A stretch of 47,500 nucleotides of DNA from the NCBI GenBank assembly GCA_018398765.1, contig JAHBMJ010000355.1, forward strand, positions 52,623 through 100,122, given 5' to 3'. Origin of the DNA: Chromera velia (taxonomy: Eukaryota; Sar; Chromeraceae). This document shows, piece after piece, positions 4,603 through 35,397 of the stretch. A model generated the notes under the pieces. That model was not told the DNA's origin and did not search any database. It saw nothing but the letters and a program-made list of their open reading frames with translations. The position numbers and the translations under genes were made by a program. Position 1 is the stretch's first letter; every line of letters starts with the position of its first letter.

Positions 4603-6066
4603 CAAGAAGAGGCCCGTGCACCCTCACTGATCCATCGCCCAATCAAGACAAGAGGGCAAACAAAGAAAGAAAACACACGTGCGCGAAAGAACGAACGCCC
4701 AATGCAGCCCCAACGAGACCCCACCAATCCATCCATCCATTCGCATGCAGCTCTATCCTTCCGCATTGTAAAAACCTACTGCCCCCCCCATCCCAACCCC
4801 TCTCTCTCTCTCTCTCTCTTTTATTTTTTGAGATGCCTGCATGTCGGAGGGCCCTTGCAGCACAAAAAAACGGCACTCCAAGGCGGTGAGTGAGCCAGTG
4901 CGGACTTCAGGTACCTGCCAGGAATTCAAATTTGATTTGTTCCTCTCTTCTCTTCTTTACTTCTTTTCTTTTGCGGAGGGAACCAATCAGTGAGGGGGTC
5001 AAGAAGGAAACAGGAGAAGAGAAAAGAGAGAGTCGGTCCTCTTTCCTCTGCATGCCTTCTCTTCTTCTCTCCAGAAGGGAAAAGCCGATCTGCCATGGGA
5101 AAAAACCGATAGAGACAAAGACAGGGACATGGACGCAGACAGACCATACAGAGACAGCGAGAAAGACAGGAAAAGAGACAGACAAACAGAGACAGACAAA
5201 GAGACAGACAGACAGCCATGAAAGAAAACGATTCGTTCATTCAGGTACGAAAAGGAAGGGAAAGGAAGGGGAAGGGAAGGACGTTCCCCGGGCCGCGCCG
5301 TCCTGGCAGGCAGACGTTGCCTGTGAGTCAGTCACTCAACTAAACAACAGACTTCATTCAGACCAACGCTCCCCGCTTCCCCCTGTTTAAATTTCTTTTC
5401 ACGTGGATGAATCCCAACGTACTCTTTTTAGTTTATTGCCCTCCCTACCTCACCCCTTTTTCCAAAGAGGCCTCTCTCTTGCACTGCAGTGCAAAAGAAC
5501 GAACGGACGGATTCATTGAAGTCTCCAATTCCCCTTCATTTCCTTCCCCGAATCCCGGCCCTTCTCCTTTCTTTTCTTTCTTTCTTTCTTCTTCTCCTCC
5601 GTGCCTGCCGTCTGCCCACCTTCGCATTGAAAGAAAGTCTAAGCAAAAAAAAAGAGAGAGAAGCCCCAACCTGCTCGCTCCTCTCTGTTGCTAATGCAGT
5701 TCCCTCCCTTTTCTTCTGACCCACCCCTCTTCCATCACCCTTTCATTTTTCTCCCCTTCCCTTCAATTGCTGCCTCATTTCTCCCCTTCCCTTTAATTGC
5801 TGCCTCAAACGACCAGCTTTCTCCTGTAATAAAATGACGATTTAGTTACTTGGTCCCCCTTTCTCCTTGGCATGTCCTTCTCCCTCCACGTATGCTTATT
5901 CTCAACACACCCACCAACCCACTAAGCCAGTCGACTGTCAGTGATCAGAAAGCGTCACCCATCTGCGAGGTGGGGGTACACAGAGAGGAGCCTCTCCACT
6001 CTGCATTGCATGATGCAAACAAACGCCCACACGGACAGGGACGTGCTTTGACACGCATATCGTATC
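3784..6066. other. Repeat-rich DNA without a confident gene
   Basis: The stretch contains CT tracts (3,784-3,868), a (GACA)n run (4,572-4,603), GAAA/CTTT-rich segments and further (GACA)n-like sequence near 5,140-5,216. Short open frames on both strands overlap these repeats. An ATG at about 4,832 followed by a GTGAGT donor near 4,886 could be a first exon, but no later exon can be joined to it with confidence. Confidence 0.6.
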
Positions 6067-6104
6067 ACACACACACATACACACATGCACGTGCACATGC
6101 ACGT

Positions 6105-6189
<85 letters not shown>

Positions 6190-6216
6190 AACACACGCAC
6201 AAACACACGCACAAAC

Positions 6217-6254
<38 letters not shown>

Positions 6255-6292
6255 ACACACACACACATACACATGCACACACACATACACAT

Positions 6293-6336
<44 letters not shown>
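6067..6336. repeat. Long (CA)n/(GT)n microsatellite
   Basis: About 270 bases of CA dinucleotides with interspersed GCACAAA and TACACATG variants. Long frames through it translate to poly-His/Thr or Cys/Val on the two strands and are not genes. It lies just downstream of the last placed exon of the minus-strand fusion gene, so it may sit in that gene's final intron or 3' region. Confidence 0.95.
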
Positions 6337-6816
6337 GCATACACGTGCAAAGAGCTGAAGTCAATCTGACAGGCAGACAGGCAGGCAAGCAGGCAGGCAG
6401 GCAGGCAGACAGACAGACAGAGAGACAAATGCAGATGCATATGCAGAGATGCAGACGTATGCAAGGAGCGCAGACACTGCAGAAACTCTCGACGTGTCCT
6501 GTCTCTTCTTCTCGGTGCGTTGTGTAGAGATCGAGAGGAACTTCAAAGGAAAGGGAGCGGCCAGAAGAACAAAAAAATACAAATGATACAACGCAACGCA
6601 ACGCAGCGACAACAAAGAGCACGAAAGCTACCGTCCAGGTGAGAGAGGGGGCATCTAACAGACAGAGATCTATGCTTTCTGACGGAAAGAAAGAGCGCCA
6701 GGAAATGAAAGAAAACACAGAGATGGTGAGACGCAGAGAGAAACCGAATAGAAGAGGCGGAGTAAAAAGGCAGCACAATTGAAAGACTGCTTAACAGAAG
6801 AAAGAAAAAGACCGAC

Positions 6817-8799
6817 CCTCCACTAACGAGCACCACACTCCTCCCACGGCTCGCCAAAATCGAAGCTGCAATGGCCGATCGGAATCCAGTGCGGCAGACG
6901 ACCGCAAATCTGCACCCTTGCAAGATATACGTCAACGTTCAAACGCATCGATGCATAATCACGAAACTTTGCATGCCTCTGCTGAGCATACGAACGCTTG
7001 GGCATGCAGTTGCTCTGCGTGCGTCAACACTAGATTCTGTGCGATCATATGTGAAGTCAACAAATCTACACGAAAAGCGAATCTGCACTACTCGTTTATC
7101 CGTCCACATCATTCCCTCCCCGTCCACACCTTTGTTCTCTCTTGCGTTCTTTCACCCTCTGCCATTTCAGTCACGTAAACCCGATGCAAAATGTTGCACA
7201 AACGAAAAAAAAACGAAAAACGGGGCCGGCACCATACCACCTACTGACTCACAATTAGTCAGGTAGACAGACAGGCTGGCTGACTGAGAAGTACCCACAG
7301 ACCAACCGACCGACCGACCGACCGAAGTCTGGAATCCAGAGCTTGCGCCTTTGTGGCCAGATTCTGGAGGGGAAGGGACTCTGACCCTGCCATTTCAGTC
7401 AGCAACAAAGAAGGGAGAAATTAAGGGGCATCAGTCCCGGTATGACGACAATTAAGCAGAATGGAGAGAAAGCGGACGAGAGAACATAGAGACAGATAGA
7501 ATGGTCGAACTCTGGCAGAGAGAGACAGAGAGGAGAGAAAGTGTGGTAGCGCTAGAGGAACGGCGAGACAGAGCAGCAGACAGTTAAGGCGAATGCGTTG
7601 AATGAACGGCAGCGCTTGAATAGATGATACGGTGCATCAAGTTTTCTTCCCTAGCTCCAATGGAAACGAACAAAACAGGTGAGCCACCTTCTCCCCACTC
7701 ACCTTTGACTCTTCCCGGTCCTCTCCCGGCTGCCGCTGCTTGGACTGCTCTCGCAAATTCTGCAGGGCCCCGGACGTCCAACACGCGCACACCCGGAAGC
7801 TCCAAGGCAGAAGGCCCCAAAGGACCTACTGACTGAGAGGAGCCTGAGGCAGAAGAATCTTTGTCCCTACTTGCTCCGGCTGCTGTAGTCTTCTTCTTTT
7901 TGTCTTTCAGTTCTTTTTGCTCCTTTTCTTTTTCTTTTCTCGGATCGTAAGTGGGAAAACTGGAGAAGAATTCTTTCTCTTTTTCCCCGCACGAGCTGGA
8001 TGACAGTTCTCCCTCCAGTACCGCAGTCACATCAGATTCCAGCCCCAACTGCTGGAGCCTTCTCAGGGCCTCGTCGCACCTCTGGACGCACTCACCGCCT
8101 GCCCCAGGCTTCGCTTCCAGATCCAGAGGCTCTGGAGGGACAACAAAAATTTGAAGAACGGGGGACGGAGGAGCTTCGCTTGGGTCTTTTTCCTTCGGGG
8201 CTTTCTGCTGCTGCTGTTGAAGCGACGGCACGACAGAGACGATAAAATGTGCCAGCCAGGGTGACCAAAAATCTTCTGATGAGGTCTGTGTCATGGGAAA
8301 AGAAAGAGAGCCCTTCACGTGACAGCCTGCAAATGCCTCTCCCTTCCGGCAGTCAATCAGAACTTTTGTAGGAATCCTGCCTGACGGATCTTTTGCATTT
8401 GGCAGGCTGCTCTTTTTGTACTCAGCCACGAACTTGGGCGCCGTCAGTCTGATAAACCGTTTGACGTTCTGAAGATGGGAGAAGTGAGTAATCAGTAGGT
8501 CGCCCGAAGGAGCGGCGGAAGTCGAAGAAGGGGGAGTGGGGGAGCTTGAGGCAGTCGAAGAGGTTGAGGGGGAAGAGGAGTCTTTAGTAGACAAGGAAGC
8601 GGACGCAGAAGAGTTGGAGGTCATGGAGGTGAAGGACGAGACTCGGTGGACGGAAGGGGGGTCCGGGAGGGCCCTCTCCTTCCATGGGACGCCGTTGGCT
8701 TTCGCTATCTGCATATGCATATACATACAGATGCATCTGCATATACATACAGATGCATACATACATAGCCTCTCCTTCAAAAAGGTCTGTCTCTCTCTT

Positions 8800-8830
<31 letters not shown>

Positions 8831-10478
8831 CACACACACACAAGAAAACAGATCGAGACGCACGGGGAGAAACCGACCGTCCGATAGAGACAAAAAGAAA
8901 GTCACACACAAACAAACAACCTGACGCACCACATCCCAGGGCATCTGCAGCCCCTTCTCCATAGTCCCGATCTCTTTCTGATAAGAGACCCAGAACGCGC
9001 GCTGTCCGCCGCCGCCGTGCCCTCCCTCGACGTGCAGGTGTTTCTCTTTTTCCCTTTCCCCCCTCACTTCACCCATCGAGAGGGACCCCCCCGCGCTTGT
9101 CGTCCCAGCAGAGGATGAAGAGGAGGAGGAAGAGGAAGAAGAGGACTCGAAAGGAAAAGGCGGACTCGGACTCCCTTGACGGGGATCGTCCATTTCCTTC
9201 ACCTGCACTCACGCCACTCACGCCACTCACTCACTCACTCACTCACTCACTCACGCTCACTCTCACTCACTCACTCACTCACTCACTCACTCACTCAGCA
9301 ATGCATGCATGGACCAGACAGACAGCCAGACAGAACCCTGCTAGAATTCAGCTAACGGTCCCGCGTCTCTTCCCAATTGAAATTGCCTTCCAGGAAGGAA
9401 AGAAAATGAAGAAAAACCATTTTCAGGTCTATCCTCTTCCCTGCGAGGGGAGACTGTTTTCTTCTTCTGTCTTTTCAGCTTTGCACGATCGAGAGGACCT
9501 GGCCAAGCCTGAGGAGCATGTGTGTGAAAGTAACCGTTTGTTCGACAGGGCTTGCTTGTTTATTTTGAACCGAATGTTTTTCTTTTCTAATTCCATCAAA
9601 GGAAGCACTCTTTGCTTGCAGGACTCACGGTGATGCTCGTTGCCCCCTCCACGACCCTGTCTGCCGGTGCAGGAGGAAGGCAGAGAAGGGAGGCAGCCCC
9701 ATAGGCAGGGAAGAGGTCTGTGTCCGGAGGCATCCCCTTAACCTTCTCGATTGTACGGGACAGATGCCGAACCAGACCCTCCCTGCAGACAGACAGACAG
9801 ACAGACAGACAGAGAGATAGAAGAAAAGAGGCATGGACGCACGGCAATCGAGAAGTTTCAAAGAAACCATCGACCGATTGGCAAGAAAAGGGAGAAAATT
9901 CCTTCCATGGAGGAGACCGAGCCAGAGAAAGAAGCGAAGCCGTCCAAAGAGCTAAAGAGGGATACAAAAGAAAGACACATGCACTTAAATCGAGGCCTTC
10001 CTTTGTTTTTTCTGTTGAAGGAAGTGAGTAACCTTTGTTTGGCCCTGACGTTCTCTTGACTGAAGGAGGAGGGAGACTGACAGGTTTGCTCCTTTTGGCT
10101 GAGGGTATCCCTTGACCTTAAAGCAGAGGTCGCCTCGAGCAACACCGTCCGCAAGCACTGAACCACCCGTGAAAGCCAAAATAGGCGTGTCCTTCTTCTT
10201 CGTATGCTGCTTGTGCCCATACGAGCGTATTTGAAAAGACGCACATGCACGTGAGCAGTGCTGGCTTTAATCAAGAAGAAGTGAAATGAAAGACCCACAC
10301 GTCCAGCGGAGGTCCGTCCTTTTTGACAATGAATTCAGTCAGCAAGCGGAATGGATACTGTGTGTGGATTGGGACCTTCTTTGTCGTTGTACGTTTTGAG
10401 TTCTTTTTTTTTCTTTCATAACGAAAAGAGACAAAGAGAGGGCAGAGCAGGAAGGGATAAATTCGAAAGGTGAACTAG

Positions 10479-10521
<43 letters not shown>

Positions 10522-13500
10522 CTTGTAAGATCACTGGGGTAATGTTGCGATATTAGGAAAACACAATCAACCCCTGCAATTGGAATGTCGTCAAAACGTT
10601 CGTCTTCTCCATCCTTCGTATCAGGTTGTTAACAGATAAACCAACAAATAAACGAACGAACCTCCTTGGAAACCCGATCCAGAACTGCCACCATTCCCCC
10701 AAAAGTGTGGCCGGGCGCGTGGATGAAACGAAACTTGAACCCTGGACAAACTCTGCATCATGCAAGGAGTGAGTGCAGTTCAGTGAGAAAGAGCAGGGAG
10801 GGGGCACGAAGGGAATGAATAAATCAGACAGAACGATGTCATCCTGCATGAAGTGTTTCTGCCCCCAACCAAATGCTGTACTCTTTCCTTCCTTCATTTG
10901 GTCGACAAACACTCGATCAAAATCTCCCTCCTTCACCTAGACGCCCTCCCTCCTTCCCACTCACTCATTCACTCACTGACTCACTCACTCTCGTGTGTCT
11001 CCATCCTTCACAAGAACGAGATGAGAATCGGGGATCGCAGCGTGAAGCGGCCTCTCGTGTTCCCCCACGAGGACCTCGGCTCCCGTCAGGCAGCAGAGCT
11101 TTGGGGCACCTGCGAAGAAGACGGTCGGAGTACGCAACTTCACTCGATCGCGCATTGGGGAACCTTTCGGACTGTAAACGTGAACTCAAACGAACGTGCA
11201 AAGAAGTTTTTATCCCCGGACCTCTACCTTAGAGGGAGGGATAAGCCGTACAGCCAGACAAGGTAAGTCGGAGCAGAACACGCGAGAATGAGAGAGAGGG
11301 GACAGCAAAAAGCAGCCCGAGGGAAAGAAACCGCGGAAACAGGGGACACAAACAGAAAAAAAGAAAACTGCAGACTGAACGCACATATGTGCAGATGCAC
11401 TGACTGACCCACCCACCCGAGACGAAGGCAAACGGAGCGTGAGTGACCACAATGCCCCGAAGAGTCAGGCCGTCGTGCTGCAAACACGCATGGCAGACAA
11501 CATGCACACGAAAACATGCACAAACGGAGAGGAGAATTGAGTGCGAGCCCACAGGACAGGAAGGACACGTACCCAGAAAGAACTTCACTGGCCTTCCTTC
11601 GCCACACTCGATTGATTGATTGATTCAAAAACTTATTTGTCTTTTCATAACTCGCGAAGGGGCACCAAAGGAGCATACTCTGGAAGGAAGGGATTGTTTG
11701 CCTCCTTCTATCCCCCTCCTGGGTACTCGACCTCTCACACCTCCCCGAGGTTTACTCCTCCATCACCCGAAAACTCCGATATCCGCCAGTCTTGCTTTAG
11801 CCGGTTTCTCGCAGACACACGCCATACAATCAAGCACCAGCGTACCCCTGCATGCGGCGGGAGGCATACAGACAGACAAAGCGACAAGCCACCCACCTAC
11901 CTCCAGATCTGAGAGATATCCTCTGAGGTCGGTGCCGGGGTCGATCACGAAAGCGTTCTCTGCAAGGAGCGGTGAATGGATGGATGCGCGGATGGATGGA
12001 TAGATAAATGAATAAATGCTTTAAAAACCTCACGCATGGGGACACACTCGCGTTCTCCCCCCGGACGGACAGAAAGTCAAACAGTCAGGCGGGCAGCCAG
12101 CCAGAACGAACGGAAGAAAGATGGAAAGAAAACAAGAAGGAAAGAAAGACGGGAAAAAGGAAGGAAAGAAGGAATGATGAATGAATGAATGAATGAATAA
12201 ATGAATGAATGAATGAATGAGTGAGTGAGCGAGTGAGTGAGTGAAAGAAATAATAAATGAATGAATGAATGAATGAATGAAAGAAGTAATAAATGAATGA
12301 ATGATTGAATGAATCCTTTACTGGATGAATGAAGGAAAGAAGGAAGGAAGGAAGGAAGGAAGCAAAGGCAGAAAATGGGGAAGCAAAACAAAAAACAACG
12401 AAAAAGACAAAAACGAATCCAAGGAAAGAACGAAAGGAAGAAGCAAGGAAAGTCATAGGAACAAAGATAAAGTCGGCCAACAGAACAGTCTCTTCTGTCC
12501 ACAAGGCATTAATAGATGAACACCCCATCTCCATCTTTCACTAATTTTGTTCTGTGGTATTTGTCAATGCTCACTGACAGCCCCGAAGCCCCGAAGCGTC
12601 GTCGGTCAAGCAGGGACGGCCACACTTGTTCCTTCACACCCATTTTTACTCATACATATCGATGTGTCATTGTCTTCGTACAGGAACGCATACATACACA
12701 GAAAAAAGATACATAAGCATCAATCAAACATGGATCAATGTGTACCTACGCCTGCAGACAACCAACAAAGAAAAGCAATGAAGACAAGGAAATCGACTGA
12801 CTGTCCAGAGCAATCAGGTAGGACGCCACTCCCATCGACCCATCGTAGTAACACCTGCACGCACGCTTGACGCACGCACGCACGATGCATCATCCATCTA
12901 TCGAGGAATATGGACGGATGCAGTCCTGTCGTCCGTCCGTCCGTTTGTTCGTCCATCCATGCATGCAGTCACTCAGTGAGCCATGCACCCGGCCATCATG
13001 CGTTCCTCAATTTTTCCATGCGTTTATTCCTTTGTTCATTGATTGAGTGACTCATTGGTCCCCGTAAAGAAGGAAGGATACGAAATGGACAAAAACCCAT
13101 GCATGGGAGCATGTGTTCGTGCCTATGTGCGTGACAAAGAGATCGACCAAAAAACGACAATAATAAAAAAAAGAAAATAAACAGATCAAGAGACCCACCA
13201 ACCTGAAGACAACGTCGCCCTTCAGAACGCGACAGAAATTTGCAAAGTCCAGCTCATCCTCTTCGTCTGCCCCCAGCTGCATACACTCAAAAGAGAAAGA
13301 AAGAGCCGGGAAATCAGACAGGGTCAGACACGGAGCTGCCAGTCCAGAAAAAGCGAAAAACTGGTGTTCACACATGCGCGTGCATCACTATGAGAGAGAC
13401 TCTGCCTCCCTTTCTTCCTGACAGTGTAAAAATGCGAGTGTGACTTTGTGTGGAGGGGGGGGGGCGAGGGGAGTGTGGGCGGGCTTGCGTTTCTTATCGC

Positions 13501-16411
13501 ATGATGCCAATTTTCTCTATCGGGAAAAAGAATGAGTGTAAAGAAGACCGTAAAATCTCTGTATTTATACCAATTTTTGGTTTGTGTCTATCAAAGGGAA
13601 TGATCCTCGATGCTTTCCTTTTGACGGCCACATCCCGTGTGTGCGTGCGAATCTCCCGATGGCCGTTTCGTAGCCTCGGCAGACGTTTGACTTTTATCGA
13701 AGGGCCCGCCGTGGAGGTAGATGTCCGTACGATCGGGCTGGGGCTTGATACGCAGGACCTTTCATGTCGATGCTTCTTGATGTGTACAACACGTCCGTGC
13801 AGAGTTTTTGCAGAACAAAACAAACCACCCAACTCACTGACTGACCAGCCGCAACCAGGTCTCGGCCTTGATCACCGGACCCACTGCCTTCTCCAGTCGC
13901 CTCAAAGCTGCAAACGGTCTCTCTCAAAAATCGGAAACGTACGGGGGTATCATGAACAGCGCGAGGTTTCCTTTTTGCCAAACCGATGTGTCGAGACGCA
14001 GACTAGGCCTGCCGGCGGGCCTTTTCAATGGCAAAATAAACGAGTCACCGCGGATTACCGACTTTCGGGAGAGCTGCAAAAGAACGTTCCGAGCATCTTT
14101 GCCAAAGAATGCACTCAAAGAATACAAAATCAATGCAAATGATCGAGTCAAAGAATTTGGCAGTCAGCTCACTCTTTTTTCATTCAGCATATCTAAAGAA
14201 CATCTATGCATGCAATTCAGCACTTCCATCGCTGTGTGAATTGATGGCATAGTAATACATGCATAAGAAAGAAGCAAATGGCCTGACTGACCCGTTGGAA
14301 GGCTCATAAAACCTCCAAGTCTCTTCATGGTTCCGGACAAAATTTGTGTCTTGTCGGCTCCTAGAGGGGCGGATGGGTGCAGACTCCCGAGAGATGTCGC
14401 CGGGCGTGCGAGATGATTTTGCCCTCCCTGGCCGGATGGGGATGCATCTGCCGCCGCCGTGTCCTTTCTCTTTCCCCCCTTCTCTGATCTGTTTGCTGAG
14501 GAGACCTTATCTTCTGCAGGAGGCTCCAATACAGACACAGCCCGGAGAGAGACGTGGACCGTGGATGAAGTTGCGTTCAGGTTCGTTGCTGAGAGACTGC
14601 ACACAAATAAGGAAACAAGCACCCAAACATGCACACAGGAGGATGAGGAGTGGGCCTCTTCATAGGAGCACTTGAGCTTCTTTTTAGAGAGAAGCTGTCT
14701 ATGCGACCGCGCAGGCAGGCATACAAGAAAGGGGCATTCGTTTACTTTCGATTATGCTGACATTTCCTTCTTCCTTCGAACCAGCCCGCTGCACATCCAT
14801 CGGCCCCACGCAGCCAGAAGAGAAGAAAGGGGCTGAAAAAAATGAAAGTCAAAACAGAAAAACACGACTCAAGGTGACAAGCAGAGGCAGTGCTGACGGG
14901 ATCCAACATGTGACGCACGCACACACCGATTACACGTAGAACATGAATACACCCGCGAGCCAATAGTATCCTGAGTGACGCACGCACGCTGTGTTTTGCA
15001 GACATGACTCGAAAGAGAGGGTAGACTGAAGAGACGGATTCGGAGACGAGTCACGAGACAAATAACAAGAGGCAGAATATTTATCAATCCCCGTCTCTCG
15101 TCCCTCGTTGAAATTTCCTTACTCGACATGTTCGAAGAGCACCGACAAACACCAGATGTGTGAATCTGGAAGCCTTACAAGAAAACCACAAAACGTCATC
15201 GCAACAGACTGACTGACCCGTGGGAGAGACGCTGCGGTCCACCAGCAGTCGTTTGAGGCCTCTCTCTGGCCGCCATTCCTGCTGTTGACTGGACAGCAGA
15301 AAGGGGAAGAGAGGCAGTGACTGCCCCCGCCCCCGTGGGACCAGTAGCCTGAGGCGGTCTCTCCTTCAACCCCTTCGGCTGCTGGACTACCGAGGAGGCG
15401 GCGGCGGTTGTTTTCTCCTTCTCTTTCAAATTCCCCCCATTTCTGTGTGTTACCCTGTCTCTCTCCCTCTCTCTGGCGACGTCTTCGGGTTGTTGGAAGT
15501 CAAACTGAGAGAGGACAGAAAGGTCCCGTGGGGGACGTGCAGCGCTGCCTGGCGTGATGTCACGAGAGAGGGTGCAATTCGGTGTGTGCGCTCCTGCACG
15601 CAGGCACTCTCGATCGATCGATCGATCCAGAGTACTTACGCCCATGCACACACAGAAACATACATGCAGACAGACAGACAGCCAGCCAGCCAGCCAGACA
15701 GACAGACACAAAGAACGAAAGAAAGCGCAGAATGAATGCAATTAAGGGAAAGGAAAGAAAAGGAAAAGGGGGTCTCGGCAGATGTCCGATCACGAGGCAG
15801 GGAGGTGCGGCAATGAATGAGGTGTACTGCCTGCGGGATTCTTGTGCTGTTGTTGCTCTGGTCGTGTCGTACGGAAAAACAAAACAACGTTCATTCTGTC
15901 CTCCATGCGCATTTATTGTAGCCAAGAGAAACGAAAGAAAGGATTGACAGCTAGTCAGAGTTTGGGTCTAAAGCAAAAATTCTCTTTTTGCCCCTTTCCA
16001 TCGTTTGTTTGCATCTCCGTCGATTTTGCAGGTCGTGCGTTTTCCTTAATTGGCATTGCTGACAGGCCCGCCCGGTGCAAAAACACAAACAACCACGACA
16101 ACTTCCGATCCGTTAATTTAAGATACAGTCTTCCAACCAGCCGAGCAACTGGTCTTGCAACCAACGAACCAACCAACCGTGGAGGAAGAGAGGTGTGACA
16201 CTCCTGAGGATTTCGTTGCCTCGTCTGGGCGTGTGCAGTTCTTTTTCTTCTTTTTCTTTCTCCTCGTCATCGCTGAACCGCCTCTGAGGCGCAAGGGCGC
16301 TTCCCGATCCAGGAGGGGGCGGGCCCCCAGCGGTGACGTCCCTCAATTCTTCCAGAGACAGGAGACCGTCTCCGTCCTGCAGAAATTAAAGGTGCAGAAA
16401 GCCATGCAGGG

Positions 16412-16453
<42 letters not shown>

Positions 16454-19400
16454 GTACATACATACAAAATCAATTACACAAGCCGAGCACTCGATCCCCC
16501 TTCCACACGCTCCCTCCCTCCCACCCATCTGACCGACCGACCGACACACCCACTGAACCTGTGAAGAGACCGGAAGGCAGCACTCGACAGTGCATGCATT
16601 TATTTTCATTCATTTGTATATAAAATTCTGTATGTATGAAAATTAATGCACACACCCACTGACCCTGTCAAGAGACCGGAAGGCAGCCCTCGACAGTTCA
16701 CTCGAGGTGGCGATGTTCCTCTCGCAACAGGCCGCCAGAAACTCCTGCAAGGAAGTAAGTTGACAGACAGACGTACAAGCGGACGGAATATTTTCAGGCA
16801 GATCTTCGGACACACACAAACTTCCACCTGAATAAAGAAAGCTTCAAAGACAGACAAAGAAACTGACAGGTACATGATCATTTAAAGGAAATTTCGACTT
16901 CTTGCGATACTCCTCATCCTCTTTTATCGTCCCCGGCAAAACTCGTTCGTTTGAAGAAATCAAGTGTTTTTCACACTTCCTTAGCCGCACCATATTTCGA
17001 CAAAAGAAAAGGAGGAGAGAAGGAAAAGAGAAGGCGGGATTCAAGAGACATCATTACAAGTGATACGCTTAATTCTTCGTCTGAGTTTCATCCATGCTCT
17101 CTGTTAGTTGGAGTCCGGTTCATGGTTTCTCTCTCGATCCATCTTCTCTCAGTGAAGAGCTCGCTGACCGACCTTAAATTCAATCTGCCCGTCAAAGTTG
17201 GTGTCAACAGACTGAAAGAGAATCTGAAGGCAAAAAGGCAGGCAGAGTCTATTGGTTGAGGGGTAAATATGAACAAGGTCGAGACGGGAAAATAAAATAT
17301 TCAACATAGCCATGAATGCAAAGGTTGACGGTCTCCCGAGACCTTCCGGAAGCTTCGCTCTGGGAAGACTGGATTCCCTTCATACAGATACAGAGGGGCT
17401 CTTCTCTTTTCTTCTCTTCTCTCTTGTGGAGACAGACAATGGTTTGGGCAAAATCTCATGACCAATCAATGGCTTGAAGATTTTTTTTTCCATTGTGTGT
17501 TTCCGTTTCATGACCAACAAGGTAACTCTAGAATAGGGGTCGGTTTCTCGTCAAACCGCGACAAATCCCTTCTCGCATGATTTTTTCTTTTCTTTTCTTT
17601 GAAGAGCTCCGACAGAAAGACAGACAGACAGACACCCTTCTGCCTGCCCCCTTCGGACGGACCCTCATTTCCTCATCACTGCTGCAAAGTTCGGAGGCCA
17701 AAAACAGGAGACGGGGCGTGAAGATCTTCCGAAGTTCAGCGTCGGACCGGATCGTTGGCAGCTTCGTGCGGAACCAGGCCCGCAAGGTCTGCATGCAGGA
17801 GGCAAAATACAAATGAAGGGGCCAAAAACTCATCTCATCCGCACAGGGCTGGATGGCTCTACAAAGTGAGTTCAGTCTCTTAGAGCAGCACAAGGACGGA
17901 CGGTGATCCCTCTTTTCAGAAGTAAATTGATTGCTTGTCCTTCCAAAGATGAACAGACAGTTTTTCTCTCTTCTGCTGACGTACTTAACGTATCTTCCCG
18001 CTCTTGCCATCCACCGACCGTTTTGAGTTCCTCGAACGACACCACCCCGTCTCTGTCCGAATCGAACTCCGAAAAAGTCTGCCGGAGCTGCTCCCACCTT
18101 GACCCTCTTAGGTAAGACGCCGCCGCTGTGAGGGCTGCCTTCACCAGTTTGGTGTGTCGGGGCCAACAGAGCAAATTCGCAATTGCCCTGACAGGAATTC
18201 TGTCAAGCTCGAGTTTGTAGCTGGAGTGAATCCATGGGTGCTGCACCGCCTCTCTGGCTGAGATTCTCTTTGAGGGGTCGACTTGCAGAAGCCGCTCACA
18301 GAAGTCCCGAGCTTCAGCCGACACCCTTTTTTTGTCATCGGATGTCCACTGAGCCTTCCAACCACCCCACAACCGATTGAAGAGCTCTGCCTTTTCTCGG
18401 GGGTCCGTGGATGTTCGAATTTTCTCTCTTAGGGCCTCTTGGTCATCTGTCAAGTGAGAATGGTGGGTGAGTGCCGTGTAGGTCATTGCCCCAACGGACC
18501 AAAGATCTACGGCCTCGCTGAACGAATCAGAAACCAGGACCTCAGGTGCAATGAAGGAGTGTGTTGGATGAATACGATCACGAAACGGACAGCCGGAAAG
18601 AGATTCACGGATCCGATCTGCAAGTGAATCTCCTCCGCCAGTTGCTTTACTGTTCTTTCCCCCCTTTTCCTGTCCCTGTCCCCCCCCCTGCCCCTGTGGC
18701 GTCGCCGACTCTTGGGGAGAGGGCGTGGGGGTTTTCACTTCAATGCCCCCCCCCTTGTCTCCTCCCCCTTCCCCTCCCCCCGCCCCCGGTCCGTGGGCAG
18801 TAGAGGAAGCAGAAGACGAAGCGCTGCTATTGACCCCCCCTATTCCCCTTGAGGAAGGGCTAATGACGGCAGCTTCCTCCCCCTCATCCGAATCCCCCCC
18901 NTCCTCGAACGACACCACCCCGTCTCTGTCCGAATCGAACTCCGAAAAAGTCTGCCGGAGCTGCTCCCACCTTGACCCTCTTAGGTAAGACGCCGCCGCT
19001 GTGAGGGCTGCCTTCACCAGTTTGGTGTGTCGGGGCCAACAGAGCAAATTCGCAATTGCCCTGACAGGAATTCTGTCAAGCTCGAGTTTGTAGCTGGAGT
19101 GAATCCATGGGTGCTGCACCGCCTCTCTGGCTGAGATTCTCTTTGAGGGGTCGACTTGCAGAAGCCGCTCACAGAAGTCCCGAGCTTCAGCCGACACCCT
19201 TTTTTTGTCATCGGATGTCCACTGAGCCTTCCAACCACCCCACAACCGATTGAAGAGCTCTGCCTTTTCTCGGGGGTCCGTGGATGTTCGAATTTTCTCT
19301 CTTAGGGCCTCTTGGTCATCTGTCAAGTGAGAATGGTGGGTGAGTGCCGTGTAGGTCATTGCCCCAACGGACCAAAGATCTACGGCCTCGCTGAACGAAT

Positions 19401-22384
19401 CAGAAACCAGGACCTCAGGTGCAATGAAGGAGTGTGTTGGATGAATACGATCACGAAACGGACAGCCGGAAAGAGATTCACGGATCCGATCTGCAAGTGA
19501 ATCTCCTCCGCCAGTTGCTTTACTGTTCTTTCCCCCCTTTTCCTGTCCCTGTCCCCCCCCCTGCCCCTGTGGCGTCGCCGACTCTTGGGGAGAGGGCGTG
19601 GGGGTTTTCACTTCAATGCCCCCCCCCTTGTCTCCTCCCCCTTCCCCTCCCCCCGCCCCCGGTCCGTGGGCAGTAGAGGAAGCAGAAGACGAAGCGCTGC
19701 TATTGACCCCCCCTATTCCCCTTGAGGAAGGGCTAATGACGGCAGCTTCCTCCCCCTCATCCGAATCCCCCCCCAACGAAGTAGAAGAACCCTCCCGACA
19801 ACCCCTCAAGGACAACAGTCCCCTCAGGTTTCCCATTACATTCTGATTCAGGCGCTGTGTCGACGTGCCGTAGTAGGCTGCTTTCTTCGGCTGGCTTTGT
19901 TGCTGCACGCAGCGTTGTTGGCATGAAGTTGTGTGTCCTGTCTCTCTCTCTTTCTCGCTCTCTCTCTCTCTTTCTTTCTGGTTTTCTTTCTTTTGTTTTC
20001 CTTCTCTCTTTTCTCTTTTTTGCCTTTGTTGTTTTTTTCGTTTGTTTGTTCGTTCACTCTTCGTTTTCTGTGCAGTGCTATTTTTTTCTCCTTTCTCCTC
20101 TTGGGCAAAAGACGGGGCAAAAAGTTGGCCAGTCAACCAAGCAACTTCTTTCCTTTCTTCCACGCACCGACCGACCGTCTCATTCATGGAACAGTTTGCC
20201 CGTCGTGCAAATCCAAAATCGACAAGCTGCAAGAAGGAAGGGAGAAAAGGAGATAGAGGAAAAAGAAAGGAGAGGGAAAGGTTGAATTTTATCAGGAGAA
20301 AAATGGAGACGCCTAGGCGTTTTGGGGGGGTCTCTCGTTTCCATGCCAACATTTGCCAACCTGTGTTTGCGTTTGTACGGATGGATTCGTGTCTAAGCGA
20401 TCAGAATTGGATGCGTGCGGTAAGTGGTGAGTGTGTGCGTTTGTGTGTGTCCAAGTGTATGTGTGTGCGCGTGTGTGGTTGAGAGAGGGGCGGGGGGCGA
20501 AAGAGGAAGGGCGTGCCTCAATGGCCGCCCTGGAAGCTCAAGAGAATAAATGAAAAAAAGGGAAGTCGCCGTTTGCCAATTTTCCTCACACCTTCTTTCC
20601 AGCCTCTTTTTCCTCCTCGTAACGGGAACGGGAAGGGAAAGAAAGTGACCAAGAAAGGAAGAAGCGTCTGTCATATCAATCCTTCAGTCTGCACTTTCCT
20701 CCATTCCTTTTCCTCCCTCCCCCTTCCTCCTCCCACCTTCACGGGCGAGTCAGGCGCCTGAGAGACGAAGAGGATGTTGTCGTATTTGATGTCTCTGTGG
20801 ACAAAACCTAGAAAGGAGGGAGGGAGGGGGGGGGGGCAGAAAAACAGTGGGGGCAGATGAAAAAGAGAAGCGGCGTGTGAACAGATGGCCGGGGTCTCTG
20901 TTCGACAGATAAAGTCTGAAAGAGAAAGAAAAAGTACCCGTCTTGCTGCGAGGACAGAGAGAGAAGGCATACGAGACAAGAGACATCAGGCTAATACGCT
21001 AACCCGCTGAATAAACGTAACCTGAACCCCACAATATTCATCAACCGTCACGACCAATAGACGCACCCACCCCGTGAATGGATGTGAATCAAGGCCGAGC
21101 ACACATGGCGAATGACTCTCTTCAGCCACTTCTCCGACACCCTTTCCGATTCTGCAAAGGAACAGTACGGTGGAAGTATTTCGTGAATTATAGAGCCGAA
21201 AGGACTCATGCAATGCATTGCATAAAAGGGGCAAAATGAAGAGAGGCAGGGCGATCAGAATTTCCAAAAAAGAAGGCAGAAATGCACGGAGAAATGCGCC
21301 AACACAGAGAGAGACGCACACACACTGACAGCTAGGCACACGTGTACACGCACACACAAACAATCAGAAGGAGGGAGGGAGGGAGGGAGGGAGGGACGGA
21401 ATTCAGTGCCGACACTTCCATGCCGGCCGGGCGACACAAAAAAGGAAACAAGGGCTACCACAAAGAAGGAGAGACGGAAAAGACAGAGAGGCAGAGACAG
21501 GGTCAGGCAGAGACAGACAGACAGGCAGACAGACAGACAGACAGACAAGATAGGAAAGGAAAGGAAGAAGATGGATGTGGACGTGCATGCATGCAGACTG
21601 ACCCCTGAGTCTGTCAAAGAGCTCCCCGCCCTCACAGAGTTCCTGACAGATGTAGTACTGCATGCATCCATGCATGCGTACGCAAAATGGAATTGACGTG
21701 TATGAATCCAACGTCTGTCAAGAATGCTACAGGCAGAAAGAGGAAGAGCACAAGACGCAACGAAAAAAAAGAGGGAGGGAGGGAAGAGACCTCCTCCCCC
21801 CGCTATTCGCAGGGCTCAGTCTCGACAGATGAAGTCATCACTTGCTGCAATGCGAGTTGAGTTGAGTGCAGCTTTAAAGCAAAATACCAAGCGGACAGTC
21901 CTCAGCATGAACTCACTCATTGACGCATGCACACACAAGCCCCACTGAGTGACTGCCTGCCTGCCTGCCTGCCTGACTGATTAACTGACGCTTCTGGCGT
22001 CTGAGAAGATTTCGAAGAGCCTGATGATCTGGGGATGGTCCAGTTCCCTCAGGATGTTGATCTCCTCGTTCAACACGGAAACGTCCTGGATCGCACTCCT
22101 GCATCATGAAGCTTACAGATAGATAGATAGATAGATAGATACTGAGATGTGCACGTACGTATTCATACATATATATGCATGGGTCCCCCCAAGCGCAGTC
22201 TACTCCTTCCCCCACCCACCCCCCTAGGGTCCCTCCTTCCTTCCTTCCTTCCTTCCTTGATGTCCTTCGGGCCATTCTTTCTTTCATTTGCATTCAAGGT
22301 CCTTCATGTCCATTCATTTGGTCATTCATTTGGGGGGGCTTTGTGTTGATGCGGGGAGAGAGCCTTAAGGACAGACAGACAGAC

Positions 22385-22419
<35 letters not shown>

Positions 22420-23985
22420 GAGAGAGAGACAGAGAGAGAGAAAGAGAGAGAGAGAGAGATCATTAACTCATGACACACACGAACAGAGAACCATTTTATT
22501 TCGCGACTTTCGATTCATGTCACTTGATTGCCCTTTGTTTGTTGACTGTCACTGATTTCGCCACACTATCGGCAGGCAGGCACAAGAAAAGAAACCAAAT
22601 CAACAAGGGTAGACGAACCCGCCCAGGCAGGCAGGCAGGCAAACAGGCTTGCAGGAAGCACGGTAGGAAGGAAGGCAGAAAGGCCTCATGGGGGGGGGGG
22701 TAGGGGGACGGCGGGAAGAGAAGAGTTGATGAGAGCAGAAGAATTAAGAAAAAGGCAAAGCAGGGATAGACGAAGAGAATAAAAGAAGAGAAGAGAAAGA
22801 GTCAGGGATAACAGCACGAAACGCCAGTTACTGAAATACCTACACTGCTTATCTGGAGACTTCCTGTCGGTTGCAATGCTACAAAGCAAACCAGGAGACA
22901 AAAAGAGAGAAGGGCCGGAAGATGAGCGAATGGAAGGTAGGAAGGAAAGGTAAACAAAAACAAACAATCTGTTTACAAACAAACAAACCAACAAACCAAG
23001 AAAGAAAGAAAGAAAGAAAGAATCCCTTCATCGATTGATCGATTGACCAAGCTGACCGACCGACCTGTGTATTTTTTTTATCGCCACGCTGTCCTCTGAG
23101 AATTTCGATTTTGCCACAAAAACTTCGGCAAAGGACCCAGAGCTGCATTCACTCATTGACTTGACTGACGATTTCGCCGAGCAGAGGTGAGATGAAAGGA
23201 CCAAAAAGCGAAAGCAGTCAGAGCAGCTAGAGGGAAAGAAACTTCACTCTTACAGCCGAATGGAATGTTTTTCAACTTAAATTCACAGGACATCCTGCAG
23301 ATATATACATACGTGCAACACAGAGAGCACGCAGCTCATCTACTCCGCAATGCAATGCACGTGTTGACTTGGAGAAACAAACGATCAGTCGAGTTCAGGC
23401 GGCAGGACGGACAGAGAGCATCGACAGACCCGAGGATGTGTTCTGGATTTAGGTGTAGACGGAAAAAGGTCAGTCAATTTCAGGAAATCTCTAACACAAA
23501 CCGCAGGAAGACAGACCCGATGACGTCTTCTGGAGTAAAGGTGTAGTAGGTAAAGACACTGCCGGCATTGGAGTGCAGAAAGGACCCTCGATTGATTGAC
23601 ATCCTGCAGAGGAAGGAAGGACAGGAGGCGAAGGAAACGTACAGAACACACAAGAGGAAAAAGGTCAGTCAGGAGCAGTCTCGATCGAGAGACTGCGCGA
23701 AGCCATCCATCTGTCCCCTGCCCTTCCCTGTATCCTCTGTTTTTCTTCACCAACCGAGTTGTGAGCATCTTCTGCATGTCCTCGGAGGTTTCGCATTCCT
23801 CCGAGGGAATCTCAATAGCCAATCCTGCAAGGAAGCGGAAATTGACATGCGGGACTTGCTGAAACATACAGCGCTGTACATATATCGAGCAGGTAAGGAG
23901 AAAAGGAATCTTTGAATGAAAAATAAAACGCTGTACATATATCGAGCAGGTAAGGAGAAAAGGAATCTTTACCTTTCGGCGGCAT
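6817..23985 (-). CDS. CDPK-type kinase fused to an MBL-fold/rhodanese module (3' end not resolved)
   Basis: I assembled about 30 exons, all agreeing in reading phase, minus strand, 5' to 3': 23973-23985, 23755-23824, 23517-23603, 23065-23142, 22846-22878, 21990-22098, 21603-21657, 21071-21151, 20737-20807, 20176-20226, 18019-19902 (with artefact), 17173-17223, 16664-16744, 16178-16376, 15218-15593, 14292-14596, 13846-13907, 13203-13276, 12802-12854, 11901-11959, 11417-11477, 10989-11109, 10662-10752, 10061-10206, 9629-9782, 9455-9508 (uncertain), 8921-9202, 7703-8708, 7323-7386, 6817-6909. Order of domains: kinase, EF-hands, disordered linker, fourth EF-like unit, MBL fold, rhodanese, rhodanese; about 1,660 residues without the artefact. 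The start MPPKG was chosen because its GTAAAG donor matches the next exon in phase; no myristoylation Gly2 is present. The last exon below 6,817 was not found. A model with two adjacent genes is the main alternative. Confidence 0.72.
9206..9298. repeat. (CACT)n array in an intron
   Basis: A nearly perfect CACT tetranucleotide array lies directly upstream, in transcript sense, of the acceptor of the exon at 8,921-9,202. On the coding strand it reads (GTGA)n and runs to within a few bases of the acceptor TGCAG. Confidence 0.9.
12178..12312. repeat. (GAAT)n tetranucleotide array in an intron
   Basis: About 135 bases of GAAT/GAGT/AAAT tetranucleotides inside the intron between the exons at 12,802-12,854 and 11,901-11,959. 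Frames through it translate to Ser/Phe/Ile/His repeats on the minus strand and are not coding. Confidence 0.9.
16545..16712 (-). repeat. Partial duplication of exon 13 and its donor
   Basis: The 3' part of the exon at 16,664-16,744 together with its donor is repeated with a few mismatches about 106 bases further along the intron (16,545-16,593), including the CTGCCTTCCGGTCTCTT core. The intronic copy has a GTTCAGT donor-like end but no matching acceptor of its own, so it would not be spliced as a separate exon. Confidence 0.8.
18029..19774. repeat. 872-bp exact tandem duplication across a single N (assembly artefact)
   Basis: Bases 18,029-18,900 are repeated at 18,902-19,773 with a constant offset of 873, and the only ambiguous base in the window (N at 18,901) sits between them, immediately after a run of seven C. 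I saw no difference between copies. The offset is a multiple of three, so a single open frame runs through both copies and makes an impossible kinase with two C-lobes. The simplest explanation is two overlapping contig ends scaffolded with a token gap rather than merged. Confidence 0.93.
23872..23968. repeat. 57-bp tandem duplication in the first intron of the kinase gene
   Basis: The word CGCTGTACATATATCGAGCA with the following AGGTAAGGAGAAAAGGAATC starts at 23,872 and again at 23,929. The second copy is complete over about 40 bases. It lies between the 13-base first exon and exon 2 and creates two TGTACAG acceptor-like sites on the minus strand. Confidence 0.85.
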
Positions 23986-28769: not shown

Positions 28770-29172
28770 CTTCAGGACGAAAGATAACGAAAGATGCATG
28801 TGACATGAAGCGATCATGAAGCGCGCATCCACTGCATGTGACAAAACGAAGCCGATTGGAGCCGCGCGCACAATTTAAAGACGCGCGAACACAAACCTTT
28901 TTTTTTAATTTATTAATTCTACATGCATGTTGCGTTTCGTTTCTGTATATATATATGCCTGCATTCAATCAGTCAGAACTTTAATAATCATGCATACATA
29001 GAATGTCTTCCATTGTGTTGCAACAGACAGTCCGGTCCTTTAAATTTCTTCCAGTTCCCTCCACTTTTGCACATGACAGTCTGACGTCCCATTCCTTCGA
29101 AAGGTTCTTTGAACGCTTTGACCTGACTGGGAGACGGTGAAGAAGAAAAATATTCACTATTATCTTCGAGTC
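28770..29172. promoter_or_regulatory. Divergent intergenic region between the HAD and hydrolase genes
   Basis: About 400 bases separate the start codons of the minus-strand HAD gene and the plus-strand hydrolase gene, so both promoters must overlap here. It contains an ACATGCATGT palindrome at 28,921, TATATATATA at about 28,947 and an ATCATGCATACATA word at 28,987. No transcription start can be fixed from sequence alone. Confidence 0.5.
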
Positions 29173-31432
29173 ATGTCTTCCGTTTTCGTGGAAACGCCTT
29201 TCGGCCGTCTTCACCTTTTGGACAACCAGGCAAACGTCCAGGAAAGCAAGCAGGGTGACCTTCCGACTGTCCTCTTGCTTCACGGTGCTCGGAAGACTCT
29301 CACAGCGAAGGGGTGGGAGCCCTCCCTGCCCGCCCTGGCGGCTGCAGGAATCCGGGCCCTTGCTTTGGACTTTCCGGGGCATGGAGAGAGTGGGGGGGAC
29401 CTTGCGGAGGGTGCAGCGAGCCCTGTGAAGGTTGTTGCCAGTGTGGTAGACAAACTAGGGCTGAAGAGCCTTTTTCTCGGGGGCCGCGCAGACGGGGGCC
29501 GCACAGTCCTTCTATGTGCAACAAGCACAGAGCCTCCACTGAAGTCTGCTCTTCATGGTGTGATCCTCTGCCACCCTGTCGCTGCGGACGTGAAAGTGCT
29601 CCAAGCAGTCAAGCAACAGGCGCGACTGCGAAAGCTTCTCTGGTAGGTCAAAAATGGTGGATGAGGAGCATGCAGCTTTTTCCCCCTCTCATTGGTCTAA
29701 TTCGTTTTTGATTTTGTTTCATTGATCAAAAAAATGTATAATTGGCGTCCAATTTGCATGCATATAAATTCGATTGCCTCCACAGCTCGGAGAAGGAGGA
29801 TGTTGCAAGCAGCGTCAATTGTTTTTCTTGTCATTTTTGTCTTATCCATATTTGGAGCCATTATATATATATTTCTCTCCTCACTCTCACAAACGTACAT
29901 ATGTTTCTAAATTAAGTTAATTGCCTCGATCGTTCTGCCTCTGCAGGTGGGCGAAGGACGATGAGGGTCAGGGCCAACCCTTCAAGGGGCCTCATGGAGC
30001 CCATTATTTCGTGCAGCAAATCGGGTGTGGGTTGAACCTGTGGGAAATGGCGGCGTGGAAGGCCAACACGAATGAGTTTTTTGGTTCTGAGGAATTTGTG
30101 GAGGCAGTCAAGTTCGAGGCTCTAGCTGCGATTAGACGAAGGGGGGTGCCTCTGGGAGGAGGAGGAGTGGCTGCCGGGGGTGGTCAAGAGAAAGGAGTGG
30201 GAGAGAGGGAGGAGGGGGCAGAAAAAGAAAAGGACAACAACGAGGGGGCCGTTGCCCTTTCCGTCTCCCCTCTCGTTCCCTCCCTCGCAGAGATTTCCAT
30301 CGAGAGCCTGCCGGATATGTCAGAGGAGACCCAGAAGGAGGCAGCAGAAGCAGAACAGAAGGAGGGGAAGGGAAAGGGAGAGGGGGGTGGCAAAGGGGAA
30401 GATTCAGGAATTCCAAAAGCGCCTGCACCTGCAGGGTCTCAGAAGGAGGCAGAAAAAGACGAGACGAGGGAAAGCAATTCTAAGACAGAAGGAAGCACAG
30501 AAGGCACGGCAAAGTCTGTCCCAAAGGAAGCGGAGAAAGATGAAAAGAAGAAAGACAAAGAAAAGGCACAACAAGCACAGCCTCTTATTTCTGCAGTAGC
30601 ACCATCCAACCCCCCTTCCGTCTCTTGGCGAGACAATCCCGAGGCCTTCAACCGACAGAAAGACTCCGAGTTGGAGGCAGGTGGCGGTTCGTTCTTCGTC
30701 AAGACACCGTATGGCGATGTGCACATCTTTCACGCCTCTCCTGAAGGGAAGGGGGACAAGGACACCCTGCCCCTCTATGCGGCCATGCACGGAGACGGTG
30801 CGAAATCTTCAGCTGCCGACTGGCTCTCGGCCCTCCAACCGTTGGCCGATCGCTCGTCCTACCGAGTGTGTGCCGTGTCGATGCCGGGGTATGGTCTGTC
30901 GTCTGGAAAGAGGAGTGCCTTCCGCCAGAGCGGGGTGGAGGTGTTGATGAGTGTGCTGGAGGGGTTGAAGGTTCGGTTCTCCTTCTCCTCTGTAGTTGTT
31001 GGGGGCAGGTCCGTGGGGGGGCGCACGTCGTTGGAGTTGGGGTCCCAGTGGAAGGCCATTGCGGCCTCCTCCAAACTTTCATTCAAAATTAAAGCCCTAG
31101 TTTTGACTCACCCAGTCGTGCCGTCCGAGCAGGTTGCTCGAGCAGCCGGAGCCGCGTTTCCCATTCTCTTGACGTGGGCAACCGACGACGGTTTCCACTA
31201 CAACCGTGCGATCCTAGCAGCCCAAAAGGGAAAGGCGGGGGGAGGGGACGCCCTGGCCAAAGCAACTGCTGGTCACCCCTACTTTGGCCCTAGAGGCGCT
31301 GCGTTTCTGGTGTCCTTGACGGGATGTGAGCTTTTGAGCTGGCAGGAGAAGGACTTCTCGGACGTCTCTGAATTTTATGCAGACGTTTTTCCAATCCGAG
31401 TTGCCAGGTTCCTCACAAAAAAAGTCAAATAA
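29173..31432 (+). CDS. Tandem alpha/beta-hydrolase protein, 651 aa, two exons
   Basis: Exons 29173-29642 and 29947-31432 join through a GTAGGT donor and a CTGCAG acceptor, splitting one Trp codon. Domain 1 (residues about 8-200) has VLLLHGARK for the oxyanion strand, LDFPGHGES and then GGRADGG (residues 103-109) where a nucleophile elbow GxSxG is expected; Ala106 replaces the Ser. An acidic, low-complexity linker of about 200 residues follows. Domain 2 (from about residue 400) repeats the pattern with VKTPYGDVHIF, VSMPGYGLSSG and GGRSVGG containing Ser512, then TWATDDG as the likely acid region. Both domains open with T-P-[FY]-G, so they come from an internal duplication. It resembles ABHD14-like hydrolases. 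Expected to be cytosolic (no signal peptide seen); substrate unknown. Confidence 0.88.
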
Positions 31433-34531: not shown

Positions 34532-35365
34532 CGAGAGCGAGAGAGAGAGAAACAGACAGACAGACAGACAGACACACACACACACACACACACACACGTT
34601 CCGAGAATTCAGCATATGTGCACCGAGAAAAGCTTTACGCAGCCTTAACGAAACGAAAAAAAGAGAAGGAAAGCGTAACCCCCCCAAGCACCCACCCACC
34701 CACCCTCGGACCGACCTGCGGACACATGTTTCTCACCACCTTCCCCGCCGCCTTCCTGAGGCTATCAGCCGAGTGCCAGATGGAGAAGTCCCCCGTGTAC
34801 CTCCTCCCACTGCTCAGCTCGTCCAATCGCTTCAGAGCAGAAGGAGACATCCCTCCACTGTTCTGCAGCACTGCCACCATCACACGGGCGTCCGCCTCCT
34901 CCTTCAGCCTCTTGGCTGACTGAGGGGCAAGGAAGGCCTCCGTGAAACCGTTCTCGAATGTCCCAGAGGGCAACGAGTCGGTCACCAAAAGGACGACCTT
35001 GTGTCTCTCCTCGTCCTCCGACTCTTCGGACTCCCCCTGTTGACCTGTCAGCATGTCACGGGCACTGTCGAGGGCGTGCGCGGTGGCTGCCCCCAGCCCG
35101 TCGGACACCCAGAGGCTCCCCGTAGCGTCCGTGAGGTTTGAGATCACTGCATGACGGTCGTTGGTCAGAGAGACCATCACGTTGGCCGACTGGGAGAAGG
35201 TGATCAGAGACACCTGCACACAGAGAGGGAGACAGACAACAGCACATGCAGTACTCATCTTTGTATTCGGATACAAGCTTCAAGGCCGAAAGAACAGACA
35301 GCCCAACAGCGACCGAAGAAAAAAAACGAAAATGCCCTACCCACAAAAGAAGAAAAGAGAGACAC

Positions 35366-35397
<32 letters not shown>

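Follow-up and report, generated by a model that had tools for sequence, protein, structure and literature searches.

The gene described here lies on the minus strand of a 47,500-nucleotide stretch of the Chromera velia genome (contig JAHBMJ010000355.1, positions 52,623 to 100,122), which we refer to as the window. Read from position 23,985 of the window down to 5,955, it appears, with a probability of about 0.80, to be one nuclear gene encoding a single protein of ~1,680 residues. In this predicted protein, a CAMK-type kinase domain and an EF-hand domain are followed by a metallo-beta-lactamase (MBL) domain, a degenerate rhodanese domain, and a second rhodanese domain. The two halves are of known kinds, that is, a calcium-dependent protein kinase (CDPK) and an MBL-rhodanese-rhodanese protein, and no record of their union was found in our protein and open-licence PMC searches. 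A sequence-only reading of the same DNA had proposed that a CDPK is fused to an MBL-rhodanese protein. That proposal is now supported by the splice grammar of the gene, by its reading phase, and by an EF4 exon that has no stop, compared with a paralogue that stops there; all of this support is drawn from sequence.

Exon chain and kinase/MBL junction

In the rebuilt model, the gene comprises 30 exons and 29 introns, the phases of which all agree, and the spliced reading gives 1,681 codons with a sole, terminal stop. After correction of the model, all 29 introns are of the GT-AG type, 27 of the 29 having a GTNNGT donor and 27 a GCAG acceptor. About 30 minus-strand exons with agreeing phases had indeed been described within 6,817-23,985; the chain is found there, but the gene does not end at 6,817: a further, terminal exon (6,000-5,955, minus strand) reads SGGVERLLSVYPHLADG then a TGA stop and is placed by splice site, phase, and stop only. 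At the other extremity, the first coding exon (23,985-23,973, minus strand) begins with MPPKG at a proposed start codon. Two features of a first model of 1,702 codons were abandoned. Its small exons 23,294-23,254 and 22,878-22,840 were dropped because a direct join of 23,517 and 23,142 yields a canonical glycine loop, IGSGSFAEVFVAK, without them, and its exon end at 6,813 was replaced by 6,817, giving a GTNNGT donor. The last intron of the gene holds a long CA/GT repeat (6,066-6,344).

The two halves meet at a 348-nt phase-2 intron (12,855-13,202, minus strand; CAG/gttggt ... gtgcag/G). Exon 13,276-13,203 ends in phase 2 (CAG/gttggt) and joins exon 12,854-12,802 (gtgcag/G) to give FCRVLKGDVVFRCYYDGSMGVASYLI, as had been claimed, which would place strand 1 of the MBL domain about three residues after EF4. 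Splice sites were scored with leave-one-out matrices derived from the 29 introns of the same gene, with a cut-off of 3.5. At the junction, the donor at 13,203 follows the consensus and ranks 15th of 29 with a score of 8.52; its partner, the acceptor at 12,854, reaches 13.47 and ranks second of 29. Across the window's minus strand, sites at least equal to these occur 1.1 times per kb for the donor and 0.23 times per kb for the acceptor. Starting from 13,172, the gap contains nine AG positions, of which 12,854 scores 13.5, 12,865 scores 4.2, and the other seven are below zero. When the MBL frame is followed upstream from its exon, a stop is reached at 12,892 before any ATG. That no stop follows the EF unit, as previously stated, holds for the spliced reading, whereas unspliced read-through from the EF4 exon stops after ~50 residues.

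Comparison within the same genome gives a reference for this junction. The kinase-EF part used as a query gave 87 matches (90 of 194 candidates scored), and the best of these outside the present gene lies on contig C200 (locus L042). This paralogue is 42% identical to the query over residues 28-219 in the kinase and 39% identical over residues 400-468 in the EF region. Its EF4 exon reads EAVKRLMSEVDTDGDGTIDFQEFVAMMRSSDS then TGA, the ending being DGTIDFQEFVAMMRSSDS-stop. At the place of this stop, the present gene has DELDFANFCRVLKGDVVFR then a splice donor, and the paralogue's stop falls approximately at the start of MBL strand 1. The tail had no match better than E 6 in the ~5.8 kb downstream of the paralogue, 593 bases of which are N, and none better than E 3 at a second CDPK region, on contig C59 (locus L043).

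The assignment of EF4 bears on the junction because the EF4 exon is the last one before it. EF4 (GADEEDELDFANFCRVLKGDVVF) is carried, together with the EF3-EF4 helix, by two exons (13,907-13,203, minus strand). It is degenerate and lies behind an insert of ~280 residues (16,376-14,292, minus strand), which occupies the 3' portion of exon 16,376-16,178 together with the two exons that follow. Once this insert is removed, EF3 and EF4 match the EF-hand_7 pair end to end (residues 6-68 of the piece) with 31.1 bits, the cut-off being 30. Without EF4, the score is 24.7 bits. EF4 thus adds 6.4 bits, so that its exon is probably, albeit not certainly, part of the kinase's calmodulin-like domain. The fourth EF-like unit of the sequence-only reading is hence a weak one, visible through the pair match and not by itself.

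The same sequence may also be read as two neighbouring genes of the same direction. In one version, the kinase would end with VSQ and a stop, as obtained by unspliced read-through from exon 13,907-13,846, and the MBL gene would start from ATG 13,282. In the other version, the kinase would terminate inside the gap of 348 nt, and ATG 12,835 would be the start of the MBL gene. CDPKs and MBL-rhodanese proteins are for the most part known as separate proteins. ATGs exist at both places, so that the earlier denial of any start exon ahead of the MBL part was too strong. Several observations weigh against a single gene. ATG 13,282 lies two codons ahead of the acceptor of the EF4 exon and is open through this exon into the MBL frame, via the same donor. 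ATG 12,835 is in frame inside the MBL exon, and a start there, which removes strand 1, retains 102.5 of the 106.8 bits of the MBL profile. The boundary fits strand 1 by eye, as had been proposed, but its residues VVFR add just 0.6 bit to this profile (106.8 vs. 106.2 bits). The AG at 12,865 (4.2 vs. a cut-off of 3.5) would give the kinase a 17-residue terminal exon and a stop, and EF4 on its own has no Pfam match. To these may be added that the exon carrying the kinase C-lobe and EF1 spans an assembly gap, that the protein searches gave no protein of the same architecture, and that genome-wide six-frame searches for Lactamase_B, Rhodanese, and Pkinase list no match in the present gene, the domains of which are cut by introns (for Pkinase, 113 of 735 candidates scored).

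Against two genes, the intron ahead of the EF4 exon is ordinary for the gene, with a donor (13,845) of 8.33, rank 17 of 29, and an acceptor (13,277) of 12.29, rank 8 of 29. EF4 completes the EF-hand pair. Within 13,400-12,855, 15 ATG-led exons are able to splice into 12,854, and just two of them have a GTNNGT donor, which is in both cases the EF4 donor. No other acceptor in the gap comes close to the one at 12,854, and the stop of the C200 paralogue sits in the EF4 exon itself. We consider two separate genes to be unlikely. Nevertheless, since the model starting from ATG 13,282 is coherent and EF4 alone is not recognised, our confidence in the fusion was lowered from about 0.85 to the value of about 0.80 given above.

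Kinase and EF-hand half

CDPKs are major calcium effectors in apicomplexan parasites and their relatives. The exons of the kinase domain and most of EF1 (23,603-18,902, minus strand) were located by motifs and, in the first model, by Pfam, which gave Pkinase with 188.1 bits and three EF-hands. The kinase is of the CAMK Ser/Thr type, as expected for a CDPK, with the catalytic Lys, the HRD Asp, and the DFG Asp in place. Its motifs are the glycine loop GSGSFAEV (residue 57), VAIKKI (76), HRDIKYDN (168), VDFGFAR (190), and FIAPEV (364). Between MNET (202) and CPFRDR (352), the activation segment contains an insert of ~145 residues, largely of low complexity. The following exons (18,028-16,178, minus strand; Pfam, loops by eye) carry the end of EF1, EF2 (DTNFDGQIEFKE), and EF3 (DRDGDGLLSLEE), and the loops of EF1 to EF3 are canonical by eye.

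When the kinase-EF part was compared with the PDB, the kinase insert being left out and the best 60 of 625 distinct sequences under 1e-20 being considered, the top matches were proteins named calmodulin-domain or calcium-dependent protein kinases, the best at 3.9e-58. Two of them, 9d8s and 3igo (named calmodulin-domain protein kinase 1), are presumably apicomplexan CDPKs. They share with the Chromera gene a kinase with VAIKK, HRD, and DFG and an EF-hand domain directly behind it. In contrast, the ~145-residue insert in the activation segment, the ~280-residue insert between EF3 and EF4, and the degenerate EF4 distinguish the Chromera gene from both, as does the absence of a stop behind EF4, where the MBL-rhodanese tail follows instead.

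The kinase half contains the only N of the window, at position 18,901, within the exon at 19,902. Its two flanks, 18,902-19,773 and 18,029-18,900, are identical over 872 bases; counted with the N, this tandem duplication amounts to 873 bases and is in frame. The scaffolding program SSPACE leaves single Ns where overlaps stay unmerged. The 872-bp duplication is probably such an unmerged contig overlap; it was counted once in the gene model, the N and the second copy (18,029-18,901) being skipped. SSPACE was used for the Chromera velia assembly (PMC4501334). As it stands, the duplication could cause gene-prediction programs to annotate the kinase C-lobe twice. A gap adjoining an exact duplication inside the gene also raises the question of whether contigs were misjoined at the N, the N-terminal kinase part then coming from another gene. 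This seems very improbable, as identity of the flanks over 872 bp is what an unmerged overlap predicts, the kinase C-lobe runs in frame into EF1, and the EF4/MBL junction is more than 5 kb away from the gap.

MBL-rhodanese tail

From strand 1 onward, the tail matches the bacterial PDB entries 3tp9 (4.6e-23) and 3r2u (7.2e-15), the latter of which we take to be CstB. The MBL part (12,854-9,629, minus strand) gave 149 protein matches in a large protein collection, the best with 33% identity across 87% of a query of 235 residues. Two exons (9,202-7,703, minus strand) carry low-complexity linkers and a first rhodanese that is degenerate (KVLIDCR..IFVVPP), and they also hold the beginning of the second, as assigned from Pfam scores. 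The last three exons (7,386-5,955, minus strand) contain the remainder of the second rhodanese, with a CRTGFR loop including Cys1641 (codon 6,896-6,894; Pfam and alignment), and the terminal exon. The two rhodanese domains previously announced are both located, but the first one is degenerate, with 19.0 bits under a Pfam cut-off of 22.2, and the CxxGxR signature is present only in the C-terminal one, which scores 33.0 bits. The domain order, a homologous MBL, a degenerate and weakly matching middle rhodanese, and a CxxGxR rhodanese, is that of the bacterial MBL-rhodanese-rhodanese proteins represented by 3tp9 and 3r2u. The Chromera tail differs from these proteins by its altered residues 1019, 1021, and 1164, by long low-complexity linkers, and by its position behind a kinase.

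Residue states were read from an alignment with the best 120 of the 149 relatives, in which THAPFAF, HAPGHT, FTGGSV, and PAYGAAS of the fused MBL occupy the places of the ligand motifs. H1017 and H1080 are retained (His in 120 of 120 relatives). Pro, Ala, and Tyr are found at 1019, 1021, and 1164, where all 120 relatives carry His, Asp, and His, respectively, and these changes set the fused MBL apart from the aligned bacterial proteins. HxHxD is the motif of metallo-beta-lactamase-fold hydrolases; of this motif and the late His, H1017 is retained and 1019, 1021, and 1164 are altered. The iron ligands of a persulfide dioxygenase (PDO) are given for PaPDO as His71, His146, and Asp163 (PMC12856154). 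By alignment, two of the three ligands of this 2-His-1-carboxylate site are retained, the third position being occupied by G1110. Gly is also found there in 80 of the 120 bacterial relatives, the other 40 having Asp, and the argument that the MBL is dead because FTGG lacks the Asp was softened for this reason. Given the loss of the third ligand, of two HxHxD residues (the second His and the Asp), and of the late His, the fused MBL is probably, and even very probably, no persulfide dioxygenase. The persulfide-type chemistry proposed by the sequence-only reading is therefore only partly supported; the last rhodanese keeps its CxxGxR loop. In this rhodanese, Cys1641 and Arg1646, each found in 119 of 120 relatives, are retained, so that sulfur transfer by this domain is possible. 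For comparison, the same source describes Staphylococcus aureus CstB as a PDO-rhodanese fusion (PMC12856154).

Two other loci of the genome look better suited to the role of PDO. On contig C3782 (locus L031; G000:C3782:34,000-42,000), an exon-split minus-strand locus, read in parts, shows a rhodanese then an ETHE1-like MBL with LVFRQLFDRESCTYTYLLA, NTHVH, HTPGHT, and FTGDA. A frame on contig C1765 (locus L010) retains THVHADH, HTPGHT, and AGDT. Both share the MBL fold with the fused domain and have the ligand motifs that the latter lacks. They are better PDO candidates than the fused MBL, and the C3782 locus is likely a true persulfide dioxygenase of the organism.

The losses in the tail raise the possibility that the fusion did occur but that the MBL-rhodanese part is a decaying, functionless appendage. 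This would overlap with the single-gene reading, which concerns gene structure first. Three residues (His, Asp, and His) shared by all 120 bacterial relatives are lost, as are 16 of the 49 columns with at least 95% identity among these relatives; like the long low-complexity inserts, these losses are consistent with decay. Conversely, 33 of these 49 columns are kept, together with Cys1641 and Arg1646, and every tail exon is open in frame with ordinary splice sites. On balance, we regard a functionless tail as rather unlikely.

Related proteins, neighbouring sequence and possible function

The check proposed earlier, a search for proteins joining Pkinase, EF-hand, Lactamase_B, and Rhodanese, gave none in the protein collection. 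Residues 960-1250 of the first model found no match at E <= 0.001 among 4,547 candidates. Among the best 120 of the 149 matches to the MBL part, none has a kinase Pfam domain, and the entries that name an organism are bacterial; among the 15 proteins matching the kinase region, none lists Lactamase_B or Rhodanese. These absences are weak because the collection, which has some eukaryotes (Porphyra, Alternaria), shows no match resembling the organism's own protein. In the open-licence PMC literature, no paper combining CDPK, EF-hand, metallo-beta-lactamase, and rhodanese was found, nor any on Chromera velia with rhodanese.

Elsewhere in the window, TSP1_spondin (42.3 bits) is found near VWA_2 (28.4 bits) at 34,638-36,282 on the minus strand, and these thrombospondin type 1 and von Willebrand A stretches may be exons of a single TRAP-like extracellular protein. 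On the plus strand, pieces of alpha/beta hydrolase occur, with Abhydrolase_6 (33.2 bits) in 29,122-29,643 and Abhydrolase_1, below the cut-off, in 29,921-31,429. A degenerate tandem array with units of ~57-61 bp occupies 916-1,303.

If the gene is expressed as a single mRNA, a working scheme may be put forward for its product. Binding of Ca2+ to EF1-EF3 would release the kinase, as in other CDPKs. EF4 would have lost Ca2+ binding and would connect the EF domain to MBL strand 1. With a linker of about three residues, a shift of the EF domain could be transmitted to the tail. Without most of its metal ligands, the MBL would act as a non-catalytic scaffold, and the last rhodanese would load sulfane sulfur onto the putative acceptor Cys1641. 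The protein may either deliver sulfur where Ca2+ rises or have its kinase tuned by the persulfide state. More generally, the tail could serve to supply sulfur to a target, to sense sulfane sulfur, or merely to localise the kinase. In a more specific version, which we propose only tentatively and hold to be doubtful, the protein would be a Ca2+- and persulfide-gated kinase, the activity of which would be jointly set by Ca2+ and by the sulfur state of Cys1641, with the dead MBL as the sensor scaffold.

If the single-gene reading is correct, a CDPK would have exchanged its stop codon for a splice that leads into a sulfur module of bacterial type, and calcium signalling would be linked directly with sulfane-sulfur handling. 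The event, readable thanks to a paralogue that stops at the matching place, would illustrate how a signalling kinase may gain a new output through exon joining.

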